Shown in pieces: positions 10,708 through 57,594 of a DNA stretch of 64,000 bases. A model generated the notes under the pieces. The model worked only from the letters and a program-made list of their open reading frames with translations. It did no database searches and was not told where the DNA came from. The stretch spans positions 399,846-463,845 of the forward strand of contig NZ_CH724131.1 of the NCBI RefSeq assembly GCF_000152725.1, given 5' to 3'. Each line of letters starts with the position of its first letter. The stretch's first letter is position 1. The translations under genes were made by a program, and so were the position numbers. Origin of the DNA: Pseudooceanicola batsensis HTCC2597. Lineage in GTDB: Bacteria > Pseudomonadota > Alphaproteobacteria > Rhodobacterales > Rhodobacteraceae.

Positions 10708-11274
10708 TCAGGTCGTGGCGCCCCGCGACAGAGCCGCGACGCCGGTCCGCGCCATCTCCAGCAGGCCCAGCGGCCGCATGAGATCGGCGAACGCGTCGAT
10801 CTTCTCCGGCGCGCCGGTGATCTCGAAGACGAAACTGTCCAGCGTGCTGTCCACGACGTTGGCGCGGAAGATGTCCGCCAGCCGCAGCGCCTCGACACGC
10901 TTGTCGCCGGCCCCCGTCACCTTGAGAAGCGCCAACTCGCGCTCTACCGACGGCCCCTCGACCGTGAGGTCGTGGACCCGGTGCACCGGCACGATCCGGC
11001 CCAGCTGCGCCTTGATCTGCTCGATCACCTGCGGCGTGCCGCGGGTCACGATGGTGATGCGGCTCAGATGCCCGGTATGGTCCACCTCGGCGACGGTCAG
11101 GCTCTCGATATTGTAGCCACGGCCGGAAAACAGCCCGATGACCCGGGCCAGAACCCCGGCCTCGTTGTCGACCAGCACCGCGAGGGTGTGGGTTTCGATC
11201 ACGTCCGAGAACGTCGGACGGAGATTGTAGGCCGAATGCTTGGTCGAGCCCTTCTTGATCTGCAATGCGCTCAT
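10708..11274 (-). CDS. ilvN: Acetolactate synthase small (regulatory) subunit
   Basis: 188 residues. An N-terminal ACT domain (about 25-100: HTLAVLVDNEAGVLARVIGLFSG, YNIESLTV) gives valine feedback control, and a C-terminal IlvN domain follows (VEALRLADIFRANVVDST). The protein activates and regulates the large subunit encoded just upstream (gap 92 bases). The pair makes acetolactate or acetohydroxybutyrate for valine, leucine and isoleucine synthesis. The start at 11274 (MSALQIKKGSTK) fits the family. Expression is probably governed by the attenuator before ilvB. Confidence 0.95.
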   Translation of the reverse strand: MSALQIKKGSTKHSAYNLRPTFSDVIETHTLAVLVDNEAGVLARVIGLFSGRGYNIESLTVAEVDHTGHLSRITIVTRGTPQVIEQIKAQLGRIVPVHRVHDLTVEGPSVERELALLKVTGAGDKRVEALRLADIFRANVVDSTLDSFVFEITGAPEKIDAFADLMRPLGLLEMARTGVAALSRGATT

Positions 11275-11366: not shown

Positions 11367-13121
11367 TCACACCAAGACCGCGCCGCCCTCCTTGATCGCG
11401 TCCTTGGTCGAGACCTCGCCCAAAAGCATCTTGTTGTGCGGTTCGCCCGACGGGATCATCGGGAAGCAGTTTTCGTGCTTTTCCACCAGGCAGTCGAAGA
11501 TCACCGGCCCGTCGTATTCGATCATCTCCATGATCGCGTCGTCCAGGTCCTTGGGATCGGTGCAGAGAATGCCCTTGGCGCCGAAGGCCTCGGCCAGCTT
11601 GACGAAATCGGGCAGAGCCTCGGACCAGGAATGCGAATAGCGCTCGCCGTGCAGCAATTCCTGCCATTGCCGCACCATGCCGAGCCGCTCGTTGTTCAGG
11701 ATGAACTGCTTCACCGGCAGGCGGAACTGCACCGCCGTCCCCATCTCCTGCATGTTCATCAGCCACGAGGCCTCGCCCGCGACATTGATCACCAGGCTGT
11801 CGCGATGCGCCATCTGCACCCCGATCGAGGCGGGAAAGCCGTACCCCATGGTTCCCAGCCCGCCCGAGGTCATCCAGCGCTTGGGTTCGTCGAAGGTCAG
11901 GAACTGGGCCGCCCACATCTGGTGCTGGCCCACCTCGGTCGTGATATAGCGGTCGTGGCCCCGGGTCAGCTCTTCCAGCCGCTGCAGCGCATACTGCGGT
12001 TTGATGACCTGATCGGAGGTCTTGTAGGTCAGGCAGTTGACCGCGCGCCATTCGTCGATCTGCTTCCACCACCTGTCCAGCGCCTCGCGGTCGGTCTTGC
12101 GCCCGCGCGCTTTCCAGATCTTCAGCAGATCCTCGAGCACATGCGCCACGTCCCCGACGATCGGGATGTCCGTGTGCACGACCTTGTTGATCGAAGAGGG
12201 GTCGATGTCGATGTGCGCCTTGCGCGAGTGCGGGCTGAAGGCGTCGATCCGCCCCGTGATCCGGTCGTCGAACCGCGCCCCGATGCAGATCATCAGATCG
12301 CAGTCGTGCATCGCCATGTTCGCCTCGTAGAGGCCGTGCATCCCCAGCATGCCCAGCCAGTTCTTCCCCGAACCGGGGTAGGCGCCCAGTCCCATCAGGG
12401 TCGAGGTGATGGGCGTGTTGGTCGCATCCACCAGTTCGCGCAGCAGCTGGCTTGCCGCATCGCCCGAGTTGATGACGCCGCCCCCGGTGTAGAGGATCGG
12501 TTTCTTCGCCGTTTCCAGCGCCTCGACCAGTTCGGTGATCGTCTCGATATCGCCCTTGACCTGCGGCTGATACCGCTTGGGTCCGCCCTTGACCGGCGGC
12601 GCATAGCTGCCCGTGGCGAACTGCACATCCTTGGGAATGTCGATCAGCACCGGGCCGGGCCGGCCGGCGGTCGCGACGTGAAAGGCCTCGTGCAGGACGC
12701 CGGACAGGGCGTCTGTGTCCCTGACCAGCCAGTTGTGTTTGGTGCAGGGGCGCGTGATGCCGACGGTATCGGCCTCCTGGAACGCGTCCGAGCCGATCAT
12801 GAAGGTGGGGACCTGGCCGGTCAGCACGACGAGCGGAATGGAATCGAGCAGCGCATCCGCCATCCCCGTCACGGCATTCGTGGCCCCGGGCCCCGAGGTC
12901 ACCAGCACCACGCCGGGTTTCCCGGTCGAGCGGGCATAGCCCTCGGCCGCATGCACCGCGCCCTGTTCGTGACGCACAAGGATGTGGCGAATGTCGTTCT
13001 GCTGAAAGATTTCGTCGTAGATCGGTAGCACGGCGCCGCCCGGATACCCGAATACCGTGTCGACGCCCTGATCCTTGAGCGCCTGAACCACCATTTTCGC
13101 ACCAGTCATCTGCCGTGCCAT
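11367..13121 (-). CDS. ilvB: Acetolactate synthase large (catalytic) subunit
   Basis: 584 residues, the usual length of biosynthetic ThDP- and FAD-dependent acetolactate synthase. It has the N-terminal ThDP domain with the catalytic glutamate in VRHEQGAVHAAEGYARSTG, a central FAD-binding domain (GARFDDRITG), and the C-terminal ThDP-binding motif after GLGTMGYGFPASIG with GEASWLMNMQE. The start codon at 13121 (MARQMTGAKMVVQAL) is well placed. It sits 45 bases after the predicted terminator hairpin of the leader. It could equally be called ilvI; the two names are used interchangeably for this type. Confidence 0.96.
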   Translation of the reverse strand: MARQMTGAKMVVQALKDQGVDTVFGYPGGAVLPIYDEIFQQNDIRHILVRHEQGAVHAAEGYARSTGKPGVVLVTSGPGATNAVTGMADALLDSIPLVVLTGQVPTFMIGSDAFQEADTVGITRPCTKHNWLVRDTDALSGVLHEAFHVATAGRPGPVLIDIPKDVQFATGSYAPPVKGGPKRYQPQVKGDIETITELVEALETAKKPILYTGGGVINSGDAASQLLRELVDATNTPITSTLMGLGAYPGSGKNWLGMLGMHGLYEANMAMHDCDLMICIGARFDDRITGRIDAFSPHSRKAHIDIDPSSINKVVHTDIPIVGDVAHVLEDLLKIWKARGRKTDREALDRWWKQIDEWRAVNCLTYKTSDQVIKPQYALQRLEELTRGHDRYITTEVGQHQMWAAQFLTFDEPKRWMTSGGLGTMGYGFPASIGVQMAHRDSLVINVAGEASWLMNMQEMGTAVQFRLPVKQFILNNERLGMVRQWQELLHGERYSHSWSEALPDFVKLAEAFGAKGILCTDPKDLDDAIMEMIEYDGPVIFDCLVEKHENCFPMIPSGEPHNKMLLGEVSTKDAIKEGGAVLV

Positions 13122-13165
13122 CGTCTGTCTCCGTTCTGCGGCGCCAATCGCCGTACCGTACCAAC

Positions 13166-13194
13166 AAAAAAGCCCCCGGGAGTTTTCCGGGGGC
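13166..13194 (-). terminator. ilv attenuator terminator hairpin
   Basis: On the minus strand GCCCCCGG pairs with CCGGGGGC across a 7-base loop, followed by six T, a textbook intrinsic terminator placed between the leader peptide and ilvB. A competing antiterminator can form: 13229-13238 (end of the leader frame) pairs perfectly over 10 bases with 13192-13201, which shares three bases with the 5' arm of the terminator. Stalling at the Leu/Val/Ile codons would favour the antiterminator and read-through. Confidence 0.88.
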
Positions 13195-13221
13195 GCATGG
13201 GGTCCTCTTGGGGTTCCGGTG

Positions 13222-13269
13222 TTACCGGCCCATGCGCCAAGCTCCTACTACGATCACTAGCGAGGTCAT
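13222..13269 (-). CDS. ilv leader peptide (attenuator)
   Basis: A 15-codon frame encodes MTSLVIVVGAWRMGR and stops at TAA. Codons 4-8 are Leu-Val-Ile-Val-Val, the end products of the pathway that ilvBN serves. AAAGGAG lies 10 bases before its ATG. The stop lies just after the segment that forms the antiterminator, so a ribosome finishing the peptide would mask that segment and let the terminator form, while starvation stalling would leave it free. This is the classical attenuation arrangement; it is read from sequence and not experimentally shown here. Confidence 0.88.
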   Translation of the reverse strand: MTSLVIVVGAWRMGR

Positions 13270-13301
13270 TCCCGCGGGCTCCTTTTATCGGTAGGCCGAG
13301 G

Positions 13302-13328
13302 ATTATGGACTCGGGACGGCAAGGTCAA
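13302..13328 (-). promoter_or_regulatory. Candidate promoter of the ilv leader
   Basis: On the minus strand TTGACC (13323-13328) and CATAAT (13302-13307) are separated by 15 bases, slightly short for a housekeeping promoter. A start near 13295 would give a leader RNA of about 175 bases before ilvB. Confidence 0.45.
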
Positions 13329-13688
13329 CCGCCTTTCTGCGGCAAAAGTGTCGCGTCGGACGGAAAATCTTTTCAATTGTTGCGCAGATCGTAGCGCATA
13401 TTTGCGATTTCTCCGGCAGGGCAGGAGAGGTGCCGCGGCAGAGGGGGACTCGCGCTCCCGAGGCGCAAAAAAACTTACAGCGTACGTACCGTCTCTCCCG
13501 CAGCGAGACCTCTCCCCGACCGGCGGCGCGGGGCGAAACGTTTCCATCCGACGGGCGCCCCCTGACCGTACGGCATCGTACAAGAAAATGTTTGCGCTAT
13601 TGGTCGGCATATGTAGGTTTGGGCCACGAAATTCGCCGGGACACTCAACCGTTTACCCGGCAAGATTGATCTGTTGGGAGGAAACAAG
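13329..13688. other. Intergenic stretch between ilv leader and TRAP operon
   Basis: This holds the divergent control regions of the ilv operon and the TRAP transporter. The stretch is less GC-rich than its surroundings and has no convincing gene. GGGAGG just before 13689 is the ribosome site of the first TRAP gene. I see no certain promoter for that operon. Confidence 0.5.
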
Positions 13689-14777
13689 ATGGATCGCCGT
13701 TCTTTTCTGAAATCGTCCGCGCTCGGCGGCACCGCCGCGGCCGCGACATCCCTCGCCGCTCCGGCGATCGCGCAGGGCAACACGACGCTGACCATGGTCA
13801 CCACCTGGCCGCGCGGCCTCGCCGGTGTGTGGGACTCGGTCGAGCGTTTCACGAACAACGTCGCCACCATGTCCGGTGGCTCGCTGACCATCGACGCCAA
13901 GGGCGCGGGTGAGCTTGTCGGCGCCTTCGAAAGCTTCGATGCGGTGGTCGCCGGCCAGGCCGACGTCTATCATGGCGTCGACTACTACTGGATGGGCCAG
14001 CACCCCGCGTGGGCCTATTTCGGCGCCGTGCCCTTCGGCATGACCGCGGCCGAGATGATGACCTGGTACTATGCCGACGGCGGCATGGCCCTGCACCACG
14101 AGCTGGGCGAGATCTTCGGCGTCCGCTCCTTCATCGCGGGTCAGACCGGCGCCCAGGGCGGCGGCTGGTTCCGCAACGAGGTGAACTCGGCCGACGACTT
14201 CAACGGCCTCAAGTTCCGCATGCCCGGCCTGGGCGGCGAAGTCCTCTCCAAGATGGGCGCATCCGTGCAGGTTCTGCCGGGCGGCGAGATCTATCAGGCG
14301 CTCTCGACCGGGTCGCTGGACGCGACCGAGTGGATCGGCCCCTGGTCGGACGAGAAGCTGGGCCTCCAGGAAGTGTGTCAGCACTACTATCCCGCAGGCT
14401 TCCACGAAGCCGGACCCGCCCTGTCGGTCGGCGTCAACCTCGAGGCGTTCAGCGGCCTGTCCGCCGAACAGCAGAAGATCATCGAGATCGCCGCGGCCGA
14501 AGGTCACCAGGCCAACTATGCGCTGTTCACGGCCGAGAACGGACCCGCGCTGCAGCGTCTGCGCGACAGCGGCACCCAGGTGCACGAGTTCGCGGACGAC
14601 ATCTGGGATGCGTTCGGCAAGGGTTCGGTCGAAGTTCTGGGCCAGTACCAGGACGACGAGATGTTCGCGAAGATCCACGAATCCGCCCAGAACTCCATGC
14701 GCGCCTCCGGCGCCTGGCTGTCGCTGGCGGAAAGCGCCTACACGCGTCAGCGTGGCCGCGTCCTGTCGTCGATGTAA
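13689..14777 (+). CDS. TRAP transporter substrate-binding protein (TakP/DctP family)
   Basis: 362 residues with a twin-arginine signal (MDRRSFLKSSALGGTAAAA) and cleavage probably after APAIA-Q, then a DctP fold. Segments such as GGWFRNEVNSADDFNGLKFRM, LPGGEIYQALSTGSLDATEW and GPWSDEKLGL match the TakP-like branch that binds alpha-keto acids or related carboxylates. It is the periplasmic receptor of the secondary TRAP transporter formed with the next two genes. GGGAGG lies 7 bases before the ATG. The ligand cannot be fixed from sequence. Confidence 0.9.
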   Translation: MDRRSFLKSSALGGTAAAATSLAAPAIAQGNTTLTMVTTWPRGLAGVWDSVERFTNNVATMSGGSLTIDAKGAGELVGAFESFDAVVAGQADVYHGVDYYWMGQHPAWAYFGAVPFGMTAAEMMTWYYADGGMALHHELGEIFGVRSFIAGQTGAQGGGWFRNEVNSADDFNGLKFRMPGLGGEVLSKMGASVQVLPGGEIYQALSTGSLDATEWIGPWSDEKLGLQEVCQHYYPAGFHEAGPALSVGVNLEAFSGLSAEQQKIIEIAAAEGHQANYALFTAENGPALQRLRDSGTQVHEFADDIWDAFGKGSVEVLGQYQDDEMFAKIHESAQNSMRASGAWLSLAESAYTRQRGRVLSSM

Positions 14778-14801
14778 TCGCGTCGGCCTGAAGAATGAAT
14801 G

Positions 14802-14828
14802 TCCGCGCGCGGCCCCCCCGCGCGCGGA
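14802..14828 (+). other. Strong hairpin between receptor and permease genes
   Basis: TCCGCGCGCGG and CCGCGCGCGGA form an uninterrupted 11-bp stem around a C5 loop, 25 bases after the receptor gene. There is no T-run. Such hairpins often protect the 3' end of a receptor mRNA so that the soluble receptor is made in excess of the membrane subunits; that role is inference. Confidence 0.6.
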
Positions 14829-14861
14829 TATGTTTGTCGGGGGACACAAAGGGTTCTGTCG

Positions 14862-15755
14862 ATGGGGAATGCTCTGATCTGGGTGCTGCAGAACATCGCG
14901 GCGGGATTCTACAACCTGGGCTACGCCGTGAGCCATCCCTCCCTCTGGCTCGACTGGTCCGACAAGGAAAGCCTGATCCGCTTCATCTATTACGGCGCGT
15001 CGGTCGAGTTCTTCTTCGTCCTGCTTGATATCTTCCTCGTCCTGACGATCGCGGGCCTGCTGTGGCGCCCGTTCATGTGGGGCGTGGTCCGGGTCTTGGA
15101 GGCAATGGCGAACGGCATCGGCCGCGCCGCCGCCTGGGCCGGGCTGATCATGGTGGGTCAGCAGATCATCATCATTTTCCTGCAGTCGATCTTTCGGCTC
15201 GGCGGCATCACCCTTTCGCCCTTCGGGATCGAGTTCACGCAGTCGATCACCTGGTATTCCGAAAGTCTCAAGCTGTGGAACGCGGTCGTCGTCGGGCTCT
15301 GCGTCAGCTACGCTTTCGTTCAGGGCAGCCATGTGCGGGTCGACCTGATCTATGCCGGTGTCAGCCATCGGGCAAAGAAGGCGATCGACATGTTCGGGTC
15401 GCTCTTTTTCATGCTTCCTTTCGCGGTCCTCGCCTGGATGTATTCCTGGTACTTCCTGTGGCGCCACCTGATCACGCCGAAGGTCTCGGCCAGCGACCAG
15501 CTCGAGCTGATGCTGCGCAAGGCGCGGATCGTGCGATGGAGCGTCGAGACCACCGGCTTCAACCCCGACGGGTTCAACGCGTATTTCCTCTTCAAGGTCC
15601 TGATCCTGGCCTTCGTGGCGCTGGTCTTCATACACGGGATCGCATTTTTCTACCGCTCGCTGCTGGAGTTCATCGAGGGCGAGGGGAGCCGGGACAAATA
15701 CCTCGACCGCGACACGCTCGGCGCCGGGGAAGAAGCCTATGAAGGCACGCACTAG
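14862..15755 (+). CDS. TRAP transporter small permease subunit (DctQ-like)
   Basis: 297 residues, longer than the typical DctQ of about 170-200. It has an N-terminal amphipathic extension, then four or more membrane helices (near 38-60, 85-110, 135-160, 185-210) and a last one near 245-270 (FLFKVLILAFVALVFIHGIAFFY). The DctQ signature region is WNAVVVGLCVSYAFVQGSHVRVDLIY. It forms the membrane complex with the large permease gene 15 bases downstream. The start at 14862 (MGNALIWVLQ) follows a G-rich stretch; an upstream in-frame start would add a basic non-conserved tail. Confidence 0.87.
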   Translation: MGNALIWVLQNIAAGFYNLGYAVSHPSLWLDWSDKESLIRFIYYGASVEFFFVLLDIFLVLTIAGLLWRPFMWGVVRVLEAMANGIGRAAAWAGLIMVGQQIIIIFLQSIFRLGGITLSPFGIEFTQSITWYSESLKLWNAVVVGLCVSYAFVQGSHVRVDLIYAGVSHRAKKAIDMFGSLFFMLPFAVLAWMYSWYFLWRHLITPKVSASDQLELMLRKARIVRWSVETTGFNPDGFNAYFLFKVLILAFVALVFIHGIAFFYRSLLEFIEGEGSRDKYLDRDTLGAGEEAYEGTH

Positions 15756-15770
15756 GGTAGGGGCAGGGAC

Positions 15771-18125
15771 ATGTTGTTCGGACTAGACGGCGTCGAAATC
15801 GGCCTGATCTTCGTATTCCTCAGCCTGTTCGCGGGGATTCTCTCGGGCTTTCCGGTGGCCTTCGCCATCCCGGGCGCGGGCCTGATCTCCTTCGCGGTCA
15901 TCGCCTGGCTCGATGCCAACGGGCTGCTGATCCATCAGGCCATCGACCAGGGGTCGCAGGCCTACAGGGACCTCGTGAATTCGGGCGTCGGACGCGACAC
16001 CATATCCATCTTCCGATACCCCGACCTGCCAAGGGTCGCTCAGCCGGTCTTCGAGCGGGGCTGGGAAACCGCGATGGACCGCAACCTGTCGTTCATCGTG
16101 AACCGGATGAACGAACGTGTCTTCGCGGGCCAGTCGATCGAGACGCTGCTGGCCGTGCTGATGTTCGTCCTGATGGGCATCACGCTGGAACGTTCCAAGA
16201 TCGCCAACGACCTGCTGACCACCATGGCCCGCGTCTTCGGACCGCTGCCGGGCGGGCTGGCCGTGTCGGTCGTCGTGGTGGGCGCCTTTCTCGCCGCCTC
16301 GACCGGGATCGTCGGCGCGACGGTGGTGACCATGGGGCTGCTCTCGCTGCCGACGATGTTGCGGAACGGGTATTCCGCCGAGCTGTCGACCGGCGTCATC
16401 GCCGCCTCCGGCACCCTGGGCCAGATCATCCCGCCGTCGATCGTCATCGTGCTGCTCGGCACGCTGGCGGGGGATCTCTATTCCGCCGCGCAGGAGACCC
16501 GCGCGCAGAACTTCGGCTGTACCGATGCGCTGACCTATCTCGGCCGGCCCGCCGTGGTGTCGGTCGGCACGCTCTTTCAGGCCGCGCTTCTTCCGGGGAT
16601 CCTGCTGGCCGGCCTCTATGCCGCCTATGCCTTCGGCTATGCGCTGTTCAACCCGTCCAAGGCGCCGGCGGTCCATATCGACGACCCCGACGGCGAGGTG
16701 ATTACCCGGAACGAGGGCCTTCTGTGGTTCCTCGCGGTGCCGGTCCTGATCATCGGCGGCCTCATCGGCGCCGGGCAGGCGGGGCTGATCGGCCCGCAGG
16801 ACCTCAACGTCTCGAGCTATACCCAGGTCGATCGGTTGGACGCGCTGCGCACCAATGTCAGCCCCGAATGCCAGGAGGCCATGATCGAGCTGCACGGACA
16901 GTCCAGATGGGACGAGTCCGTCGCCGCGCGCGAAGCCCTCGCCGCCGCCGGCGGGGCCGAGGAAACCCGCGAACTGACCGAGGACGAGATGAACGCGGCC
17001 GTGGCCGACCGGCTCGCCTCGACGGCGCCCATCGGCTCGGGCGTGGCCACGCTCTTCGGCCTTGTTCTGCTGTCGCTGGCCGTGGCGCGCGGGGTCAAGC
17101 CCTCGGCCCCGGCGGCGCCTCTGGTCGTGGGGCTTCTGGGGGTCGTTCTGGCCTTCGTGCTGGACGCGGTCTACATCGGACCCGGCATGACCGGCGGCAC
17201 CAAGGTGATGATCCTGCTGATCCCGCTGGCCCTGTGCTTCTGGTCGCTGCGCCACGCTGCCGCGCGCATGGCCGAGAACGACCTGATCCGGGTGGTCTTT
17301 CCGCCGCTGGTCCTGATCATCGCGGTGCTGGGCTCGATCCTGGGCGGCGTCACCAATCCGACGCCGGCCGCCGCGCTCGGCGCGGGCGGGGCGATCATGC
17401 TGGCCGCCTACCGCAAGCTCAAGGACGAGGGCAATTCCGGCAGGATCATCGTCTGGGCCACCATAGCGCTGGTTGCGCTGATCCTGGTCGGGATCAACTT
17501 CGACCTGCGGATGAACCAGGCGGTCGTGACCTTCGAGAACCGCATCGGCTATGTCATCGCCTATGCCGCGTACACGCTCGCGGCCATCGCCCTGATCTAC
17601 GCCTGCATCGTGCTGTTCCGGAACGGGGTGCTGACCCCGATCGTGCGCGAGACGGCCAAGGTCACCTCGATGGTCTTCACCATCCTGATCGGCTCGCAGC
17701 TTCTGAACCTGGTGGTCATCTCCTTCGGGGGCGAACACTACATCCAGCAGTTCCTGCGCTCCTTCGACAACGAGTTCACCGTCTTCCTGCTGGTGATGCT
17801 GGTGCTCTTCGTGCTGGGCTTCGTGCTCGACTTTCTCGAGATCATCTACATCGTCGTGCCCATCGTCGGGCCCGTGATCTACGGCGGCTCCTTCGATCCC
17901 AAGTGGGTGACGATCATGATCGCGGTGAACCTGCAGACCTCGTTCCTGACGCCGCCCTTCGGCTTCGCGCTCTTCTATTTGCGCGGGGTGGCGCCGCCGA
18001 CGGTGACGACGGGCCATATCTACCGCGGCATCATGCCCTTCGTGATCATTCAGGTGGTGGGGCTGGCGCTTCTCTGGTTCGCTCCGGGCATCGTCACCAT
18101 CGTGCCCGACCTGATCGGCAACTGA
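15771..18125 (+). CDS. TRAP transporter large permease subunit (DctM-like, extended)
   Basis: 784 residues, nearly twice the usual DctM length of about 430. DctM landmarks are present (FVLMGITLERSKIANDLL, AASTGIVGATVVTMGLL, ASGTLGQIIPPSIVIVLLG, and a C-terminal TPPFGFALFYLRGVAPP). Polar insertions lie after the first helix (about 45-110) and between 335 and 425, followed by additional helices near 430-520. It should use an ion gradient to move the ligand delivered by the receptor. The same enlarged layout accompanies the long small subunit, so the two size changes may have evolved together. Confidence 0.88.
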   Translation: MLFGLDGVEIGLIFVFLSLFAGILSGFPVAFAIPGAGLISFAVIAWLDANGLLIHQAIDQGSQAYRDLVNSGVGRDTISIFRYPDLPRVAQPVFERGWETAMDRNLSFIVNRMNERVFAGQSIETLLAVLMFVLMGITLERSKIANDLLTTMARVFGPLPGGLAVSVVVVGAFLAASTGIVGATVVTMGLLSLPTMLRNGYSAELSTGVIAASGTLGQIIPPSIVIVLLGTLAGDLYSAAQETRAQNFGCTDALTYLGRPAVVSVGTLFQAALLPGILLAGLYAAYAFGYALFNPSKAPAVHIDDPDGEVITRNEGLLWFLAVPVLIIGGLIGAGQAGLIGPQDLNVSSYTQVDRLDALRTNVSPECQEAMIELHGQSRWDESVAAREALAAAGGAEETRELTEDEMNAAVADRLASTAPIGSGVATLFGLVLLSLAVARGVKPSAPAAPLVVGLLGVVLAFVLDAVYIGPGMTGGTKVMILLIPLALCFWSLRHAAARMAENDLIRVVFPPLVLIIAVLGSILGGVTNPTPAAALGAGGAIMLAAYRKLKDEGNSGRIIVWATIALVALILVGINFDLRMNQAVVTFENRIGYVIAYAAYTLAAIALIYACIVLFRNGVLTPIVRETAKVTSMVFTILIGSQLLNLVVISFGGEHYIQQFLRSFDNEFTVFLLVMLVLFVLGFVLDFLEIIYIVVPIVGPVIYGGSFDPKWVTIMIAVNLQTSFLTPPFGFALFYLRGVAPPTVTTGHIYRGIMPFVIIQVVGLALLWFAPGIVTIVPDLIGN

Positions 18126-28207: not shown

Positions 28208-28284
28208 GTGCCGCCTTAGCTCAGTTGGTTAGAGCGCTGGATTGTGGATCCAGAGGTCCCCTGTTCAAGCCAGGGAGGCGGTAC
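28208..28284 (+). tRNA. tRNA-His (GTG anticodon)
   Basis: A full cloverleaf can be drawn. The acceptor is 8 bp including the extra 5' G paired with C73, the identity mark of tRNA-His. The D arm is GCTC...GAGC, the anticodon stem CTGGA/TCCAG encloses TTGTGGA with anticodon GTG, and the T arm CCCTG/CAGGG encloses TTCAAGC. The CCA end is not encoded. Confidence 0.96.
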
Positions 28285-28473
28285 CACTCTCCCAACAGTT
28301 CTCGTACCTGCCACCTTGCGCCCAGGCGCCGCGCTCCGCACCGGTTGCGCGCGGAGTGCGCCAGGACGTCGCCCCCGGCCCGGGCGCGTGGCTCCCGGGC
28401 ATTGCCGCCGGGCGCGGCGCACGCGGGAGGCTCGGCTTGTGTTCGGCCCGGAGATGCGCGGGAGAGGGCGAGG

Positions 28474-42134: not shown

Positions 42135-42644
42135 ATGACCAAAGCGAAAAAAGCCGAATTCCGTCCGAACGACTACGTCGTGTATCCCGCGCACGGCGTC
42201 GGCCAGATCGTCTCGATCGAGAGCCAGGAGATCGCCGGGATTTCCCTCGAGCTTTTCGTGATTTCCTTCGAGAAGGACAAGATGACCCTGCGCGTGCCGA
42301 CCAACAAGGCGACCGAGGTGGGGATGCGGTCCCTCTCGACCCCCGATGTCGTCTCCAAGGCCATGTCCACGCTCAAGGGCAAGGCCAAGGTCAAGCGCGC
42401 GATGTGGTCGCGCCGGGCGCAGGAGTACGAGCAGAAGATCAACTCGGGCGATCTGGTGGCCATCGCCGAAGTGGTCCGCGACCTGCACCGCAACGACGAC
42501 CAGCGCGAGCAGTCCTATTCCGAGCGTCAGCTCTATGAGGCCGCGCTCGAGCGGCTGACCCGCGAAGTCGCCGCCGTCTCGGGCGCGGACGAGGTCGATG
42601 CCGCGCGCAAGGTGGACGAGGTCCTGGTCTCCCGCGCGGCCTGA
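42135..42644 (+). CDS. carD: CarD family transcription regulator
   Basis: 169 residues. The N-terminal RNA-polymerase-interacting Tudor-like domain (FRPNDYVVYPAHGVGQIVSIESQEIAGISLELFVI) is followed by a helical DNA-binding C-terminal half (VKRAMWSRRAQEYEQKINSGDL, YSERQLYEAALERL). CarD/CdnL stabilises open complexes at housekeeping promoters, and in Rhodobacter sphaeroides it compensates for weak -10 elements. It is single, with its own promoter and terminator. Confidence 0.94.
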   Translation: MTKAKKAEFRPNDYVVYPAHGVGQIVSIESQEIAGISLELFVISFEKDKMTLRVPTNKATEVGMRSLSTPDVVSKAMSTLKGKAKVKRAMWSRRAQEYEQKINSGDLVAIAEVVRDLHRNDDQREQSYSERQLYEAALERLTREVAAVSGADEVDAARKVDEVLVSRAA

Positions 42645-42664
42645 CCGGCGGAACGTGATTCAGG

Positions 42665-42695
42665 GGCCGCTCCGGGGGACCGGGGCGGCCTTTTT
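42665..42695 (+). terminator. Terminator of carD
   Basis: GGCCGC with TCCGG pairs with CCGGG and GCGGCC, followed by five T. It starts 21 bases after the carD stop. Confidence 0.85.
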
Positions 42696-42742
42696 GCGTT
42701 CCGGGCGGTGCGGGCGGAGCACGCACCCCACGGCGCGGCGCT

Positions 42743-57510: not shown

Positions 57511-57594
57511 TGGTGGGCGACCCTGGAATCGAACCAGGCATGGGTCTCCCCGGCGGAGTTACAGTCCGCTGCCGCACCTTGCAGCTCGTCGCCC
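57511..57594 (-). tRNA. tRNA-Tyr (GTA anticodon)
   Basis: 84 bases on the complement. The acceptor GGGCGAC pairs with GTCGCCC, with A73 and an encoded CCA. The anticodon stem CGGA/TCCG encloses CTGTAAC with anticodon GTA, and a long variable arm is present, as expected for a class II tRNA. The T arm CCTGG/CCAGG encloses TTCGATT. Confidence 0.95.

Follow-up and report, generated by a model that had tools for sequence, protein, structure and literature searches.

The ilvBN operon of Pseudooceanicola batsensis HTCC2597 is, with high confidence, controlled by a ribosome-mediated transcription attenuator. Attenuators of this sort are already known, and the present one is ordinary and well conserved. 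The parts of the element, their spacing, their conservation and the covariation of the antiterminator stem can be read directly from the DNA of the window, here meaning the whole 64,000-nt stretch that was analysed (contig NZ_CH724131.1, positions 399,846 to 463,845), and from the regions upstream of ilvB in its relatives.

Anatomy of the ilvBN leader

The features are given below in the order in which they would be transcribed.

13300..13328, minus strand: probable promoter, TTGACC (13328–13323), a 17-nt spacer and TAATCC (13305–13300)
13279..13286, minus strand: Shine-Dalgarno-like sequence AAAAGGAG, 9 nt 5' of the leader ATG
13222..13269, minus strand: leader ORF encoding MTSLVIVVGAWRMGR, from ATG at 13269 to TAA at 13222, 15 sense codons
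13246..13260, minus strand: regulatory codons CTA GTG ATC GTA GTA, Leu-Val-Ile-Val-Val, codons 4–8 of the leader
13229..13238, minus strand: antiterminator stem, 5' arm GGCGCATGGG, within the last leader codons
13216..13228, minus strand: inner hairpin CCGG-UAACA-CCGG as found in the fold, its loop holding the leader stop codon
13192..13201, minus strand: antiterminator stem, 3' arm CCCATGCGCC, complementary to GGCGCATGGG at 10 of 10 positions
13192..13194, minus strand: boundary trinucleotide GCC, common to the stem 3' arm and the terminator 5' arm
13166..13194, minus strand: intrinsic terminator GCCCCCGG/CCGGGGGC, with an 8-bp GC stem (13194–13187/13179–13172), a 7-nt loop and T6 (13171–13166)
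11367..13121, minus strand: ilvB, encoding the 584-aa large subunit of acetolactate synthase (1141 bits against NCBIfam NF006581, whose cutoff is 974)
10708..11274, minus strand: ilvN, encoding the small subunit of acetolactate synthase (227 bits against NCBIfam NF008864, whose cutoff is 119, for the scanned stretch 10708–11271), with its ATG start taken from the sequence

This anatomy bears out the initial annotation in its 15-codon leader with Leu-Val-Ile-Val-Val, in the ribosome site belonging to that leader and in the terminator with its T-run, and the end that it gave for the element, 13328, is the first base of the −35-like TTGACC. A generic sigma-70 scan reported no promoter at the leader. 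The 131-nt stretch folds with a z-score of −3.11, none of 200 shuffles being equally stable, and the stem arm pattern has a single site in the genome assembly (∼92% complete). We also applied a fixed annotation rule, which demands a leader with at least three Leu/Ile/Val codons in five, a folded stem enclosing the stop codon, and a terminator. On both strands of the window it matched twice, at the ilvBN leader and at 42691 on the plus strand; the second match was rejected as a false positive, since a 169-aa ORF ends there and is followed by its terminator (region 42135–42710, plus strand), and it serves as a yardstick for the rule. A T-box or riboswitch leader was likewise rejected: the Rfam scan of the window at gathering thresholds gave only a tRNA, and the four families that a permissive scan of 13050–13700 listed were all sRNA or antisense ones, with neither a T-box nor a riboswitch among them.

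The spacer between the Shine-Dalgarno-like sequence and the leader ATG (13271–13281, minus strand) reads GAGCCCGCGGG in the window and GAGCCCTTGGG in several relatives of the same genus. It is able to pair with the 3' arm of the terminator, and is paired in this way in the minimum-energy fold. Divergent from ilvB lies a TRAP transporter set (13686–18125, plus strand). Its DctP-like binding protein scores 42.6 bits and its DctM-like large permease, 784 aa long and matching in three stretches, scores 249.6 bits; neither reaches its NCBIfam cutoff. Elsewhere in the window are genes for tRNA-His (GTG; 28210–28286, plus strand) and tRNA-Tyr (GTA; 57511–57594, minus strand).

Conservation and covariation in the family

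A first sample of 49 loci came from as many genomes, some in the window's family and some in other families. A script based on the stem core found GCGC[A/G]TGGG together with a terminator in 32 of these loci, 31 of which had the exact partner arm, while the 17 loci without the core were 13 from other families and four family members with different stems. Of 295 family genomes, 181 contain the arms in their exact form, and none contains the backward control. Among the 114 pattern-negative family genomes, the first set already included four; ilvB was sought in a further 80, with a match in 76 and the upstream region obtained from 73, and 30 were left unsearched. These 73 regions were pooled with the first-set loci that belong to the family and with 80 named loci, mostly Rhodobacteraceae by title. 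Once five duplicates and one short locus had been removed, the pool held 183 distinct family ilvB upstreams.

The least biased test of the leader used the 87 of these 183 upstreams that were chosen by their exact stem arms alone. Between the arms, the leader frame is closed by a stop codon in all 87, and the two alternative frames in 29 and 12. A start codon lies 11 codons before the CGC of the core in 82 (1 and 0 in the other frames), and five successive codons specify Leu, Ile or Val in 85, 85, 87, 83 and 80 upstreams. The codons just outside these five do so in 8 and 3 of the 87, and the other two frames lack the pattern. The initial annotation had staked its reading in advance on conservation of the branched-chain codons among relatives, which are thus kept at each of the five positions in 80–87 of the 87 stem-chosen upstreams. 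Its claim that branched-chain starvation is sensed through translation of the leader gains support from this test as comparative anatomy, and sensing and termination would be expected in vivo.

The fixed rule annotated 163 of the 183 family upstreams, 159 of them with the stem end within −6 to +5 nt of the terminator start, and left 20 unannotated. The same two counts were 1 (0) of 183 for reverse complements, 0 of 915 for shuffles and 80 (47) of 915 when the terminator was kept and the sequence upstream of it shuffled. Among the 159, all three of Leu, Ile and Val are represented in 135 leaders, and 121 leaders have 15 codons; the stop codon lies inside the stem-loop in 158, a figure that the rule itself demands and that is hence no evidence. 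TTGAC occurs 10–90 nt 5' of the leader start in 158 of the 159, versus 9 of 159 when the same stretches were shuffled, and a broad Shine-Dalgarno-like motif is present in 130 (a count without a control). The terminator is kept in the relatives, located between leader and ilvB, and inner hairpins are present in their folds too.

In the main clade the antiterminator stem is nearly invariant, and such changes as occur are compensated. Covariation, proposed in the initial annotation as a check, was found for this stem: L086 carries GGTGCATGGG/CCCATGCACC and L142 carries GCACATGGG/CCCATGTGC, in both cases with the pairing kept and with Arg changed to Cys (peptide RCMGR) and to His (peptide THMGR), respectively, and divergent family members have stems of other sequence at the same place. 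For 16 hand-picked stems (11 distinct), 116 of 116 pairs form with the stem's own partner versus 66.9% of 1502 partner-swapped pairs, and beyond the four basal pairs the figures are 52 of 52 versus 44.4% of 590. Because pairing stems were selected, own-partner pairing is high by construction, and the informative part of this comparison is that the sequences differ.

The same changes bear on whether the RMGR tail of the leader peptide could itself be functional, through nascent-chain stalling or action in trans, with the stem as a by-product. The tail is widely kept (Arg 143/158, Met 131/158, Gly 124/156 and Arg 137/153 at these positions), but its residues differ in most of the members, described below, whose stem stops short of the terminator, and in L086 and L142 the peptide is altered while the pairing is preserved. 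Given that compensatory stem changes alter the peptide, we reject a function of the tail as very unlikely.

The boundary between stem and terminator

From the anatomy of the ilvBN attenuator we infer when ribosomes would stall in the cell, and when transcription would end or read through. With Leu, Val and Ile tRNAs charged, the ribosome would reach the stop codon and cover the 5' arm (13238–13229), which would block the stem, let the terminator form and end the transcript near 13166. Were one of these tRNAs scarce, the ribosome would stall on codons 4–8 and leave the 5' arm free; the stem would then form first and capture the boundary GCC (13194–13192), the terminator would lack three pairs beside the U-tract, and the polymerase would continue into ilvB.

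The initial annotation had described a perfect 10-base pairing that excludes the terminator. The pairing itself is confirmed, but full exclusion was overstated, as stem and terminator share only GCC, three of the terminator's eight five-prime bases. The full stem with a 5-bp terminator was computed at −33.6 kcal/mol. Cutting the stem to 7 bp and giving the terminator all its 8 bp yields −35.1 kcal/mol, a difference of 1.5 kcal/mol that favors the full terminator. Given that only GCC is shared, exclusion would be a near-isoenergetic exchange of three base pairs, and the hairpins can coexist except for those pairs. In the window, with the ribosome represented by a mask whose footprint was assumed to reach 12 nt past the first base of the A-site codon, the terminator base formed with probability 0.07 and the stem with probability 0.97 for a stall at the first branched-chain codon, changing to 0.99 and 0.70 at the last Val codon and to 1.00 and 0 once the stop codon was reached. 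Averaged over the 144 relatives whose stem overlaps the terminator, the terminator base gave 0.76 at the first codon, 0.97 at the last and 0.99 at the stop. Because these probabilities shift with the stall codon, the computed outcome hinges on the stall site and on the assumed 12-nt footprint. The masking model thus goes in the right direction but is sensitive to the stall site, and averaged over relatives it yields only partial exclusion at equilibrium.

The overlap between stem and terminator is +1 to +4 nt in those 144 of the 163 annotated members, and 19 members lie at 0 or below. In what we call the gap class, the stem ends 2–5 nt before the terminator. Stem (probability at least 0.84) and terminator base (at least 0.96) were predicted in the same molecule in 15 of 16 hand-picked gap members; in the remaining one, L173, the check failed (stem 0.06). 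With the 5' arm removed, the terminator base had a probability of at least 0.93 in 14 of the 16, and of 0.36 in L193 and 0.10 in L173, opposite to expectation. The hand-picked set departs from the automatic assignment because five of its members (L030, L040, L078, L163 and L173) were assigned by eye: the fixed rule places L035, L040, L163 and L173 at −9 to −49, does not annotate L030 and gives L078 an overlap of 3. L035, L197, L203 and L204 were excluded from the list as ambiguous, and L212, which the rule puts at −6, was kept out of the gap class since its terminator can be drawn by eye as overlapping the stem.

An IlvB tree (FastTree) of 153 rows, 11 of them unlabelled and with L173 and loci lacking the full gene excluded, places 13 of its 15 gap members in one deep 15-row branch, the other two rows of which are unlabelled (support 88, root split weak). 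Of the two gap members outside this branch, L078 is near the root and L163 within the overlap clade. The gap label requires five changes against all other rows, three of these forced by starred branches, and three changes when gap and overlap rows alone are counted.

Leaders of this kind were also sought in other alphaproteobacterial families. In a first set of 39 loci (two genomes represented twice), the rule annotated five, of which only L263 looks by eye like a true leader. In a second set, 13 of 20 regions could be oriented, four were annotated and three were convincing, all from one family, f70, and one of them from the genome of L263. These three f70 genomes carry branched-chain leaders before ilvB with rule offsets of −5, 0 and −7, the 0 being reached via isolated outer pairs where by eye the stem ends 4 nt short. 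The other alphaproteobacterial families in both sets yielded no convincing leader of this kind.

Given that both hairpins form fully together in the gap members, exclusion by base pairing at equilibrium cannot work there. We propose that in this class the stem may hinder the neighboring terminator in the exit channel of the polymerase, or in time. Extended to the element as a whole, a stem adjoining the terminator would block it by steric clash in the exit channel or by kinetic delay of its basal pairs, base sharing would be an optional refinement, and the ribosome would still decide whether the stem forms; this is a possibility that we hold tentatively, with the balance of belief somewhat against it. 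It is consistent with the coexistence of both hairpins 2–5 nt apart in the 15 hand-picked members, with the concentration of gap members in one deep branch and with the offsets in the three genomes examined from the second family. It also accords with the narrow placement of the stem 3' end, which in 159 of the 163 annotated members falls between −6 and +5 nt relative to where the terminator begins, a range to be read in light of the stem fold having been stopped 4 nt into the terminator, so that larger overlaps are invisible and larger gaps visible. On the other hand, the gap class might use other pairings or its leaders may not regulate termination, and the value of 0.36 for the terminator base of L193 without its 5' arm argues that some other pairing competes there. 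The 163 annotated leaders form a natural series in which the same parts recur and the boundary between the hairpins varies, from the +1 to +4 nt shared in 144 members to none in the deep branch. This makes it testable whether an antiterminator must steal bases from the terminator or need only stand beside it.

Relation to Atu_C8 and to known ilv attenuators

The window element gives a full-length, 122-position match to Rfam family RF02502 (Atu_C8) with E = 1.9e-5, at 35.6 bits against a gathering score of 50. RF02502 is accordingly absent from the gathering-threshold Rfam scan of the window, and classing the element as a member was rejected on this score. The full-length match could also indicate a stand-alone small RNA of the Atu_C8 type that acts in trans and precedes ilvB incidentally. 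This we regard as extremely improbable, considering not only the score below cutoff but also that in the family the element precedes ilvB with a branched-chain leader, and that the Atu_C8 consensus itself has the form of a leader, with codons for Ile-Ile-Leu-Val-Val (AUG AUU AUU CUU GUG GUG ...).

In a sample of the class, RF02502 matched at E ≤ 0.001 in 6 of 385 genomes, one of them above the cutoff, and in the family of that genome 6 of 36 pass the cutoff. Five of the six passing loci (L055, L215, L217, L218 and L219, with the exact core) have a leader with at least two close Val codons that precedes a transporter-like gene (MFS by eye); their elements, near 1460–1650 on the strand of each locus, carry the same GCGCATGGG stem as ilvB leaders. 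In the genome with the best Atu_C8 match (G420), the ilvB upstream, L270, was not annotated by the rule. Like the window element, Atu_C8, which is filed as a ‘Rhizobiales sRNA’, combines branched-chain codons, a GCGCAUGGG stem, a stop codon in an inner hairpin and a terminator. Unlike the window element, it precedes a transporter-like gene rather than ilvB in the five loci, and its stem lies 8 nt from the terminator in the four loci that the rule annotated. Given the branched-chain leader before a transporter-like gene, the Atu_C8 ‘sRNA’ at those loci is probably a terminated leader, which suggests that this Rfam family is a leader attenuator.

For the ilvBN attenuator itself, a known counterpart in the same operon and class is found in Caulobacter crescentus, where, according to excerpts of PMC4117421 citing Tarleton et al. 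1994, ilvBN is controlled by attenuation with tandem Ile/Val leader codons before a rho-independent terminator. Leaders of alphaproteobacterial ilvB/ilvIH were predicted by Vitreschak et al. 2004, as cited in passages of PMC1273637 and PMC2573895; the former terms the alphaproteobacterial ilvB leader peptide previously described, and the latter lists an ‘ilvIH cis regulatory’ element for S. meliloti. A term search of PMC4833913 and PMC2965389 gave nothing on ilv, and no title on the ilvB leaders of the window's family appeared among the literature matches listed, which is weak evidence of absence.

The shared GCC has a parallel in the ilvBNC operon of Corynebacterium glutamicum, a member of an unrelated phylum. 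According to excerpts of PMC11857589 (2025), its antiterminator lies next to the terminator and the two ‘overlap at a trinucleotide GCC’; mutants altered at the base of the terminator make more valine, and valine synthesis correlates with ilvB expression. This ‘fast’ attenuator resembles the window element in the shared boundary GCC and in its Leu, Val and Ile leader codons, and its model, as set out there, includes a third, anti-antiterminator hairpin. A ribosome-gated stem 2–7 nt before the terminator might switch termination by abutment alone, in the deep branch and outside the family, with GCC sharing as a refinement convergent with the Corynebacterium attenuator; we put this forward as a conjecture more doubtful than the tentative reading of the stem–terminator boundary given above, and on balance unlikely. 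In the same excerpts, the authors describe a new attenuator type with the boundary trinucleotide as a hallmark of the ilvBNC operon. The GCC of the window bears on that claim, since the same design in another phylum suggests that GCC sharing is not unique to Corynebacterium ilvBNC.
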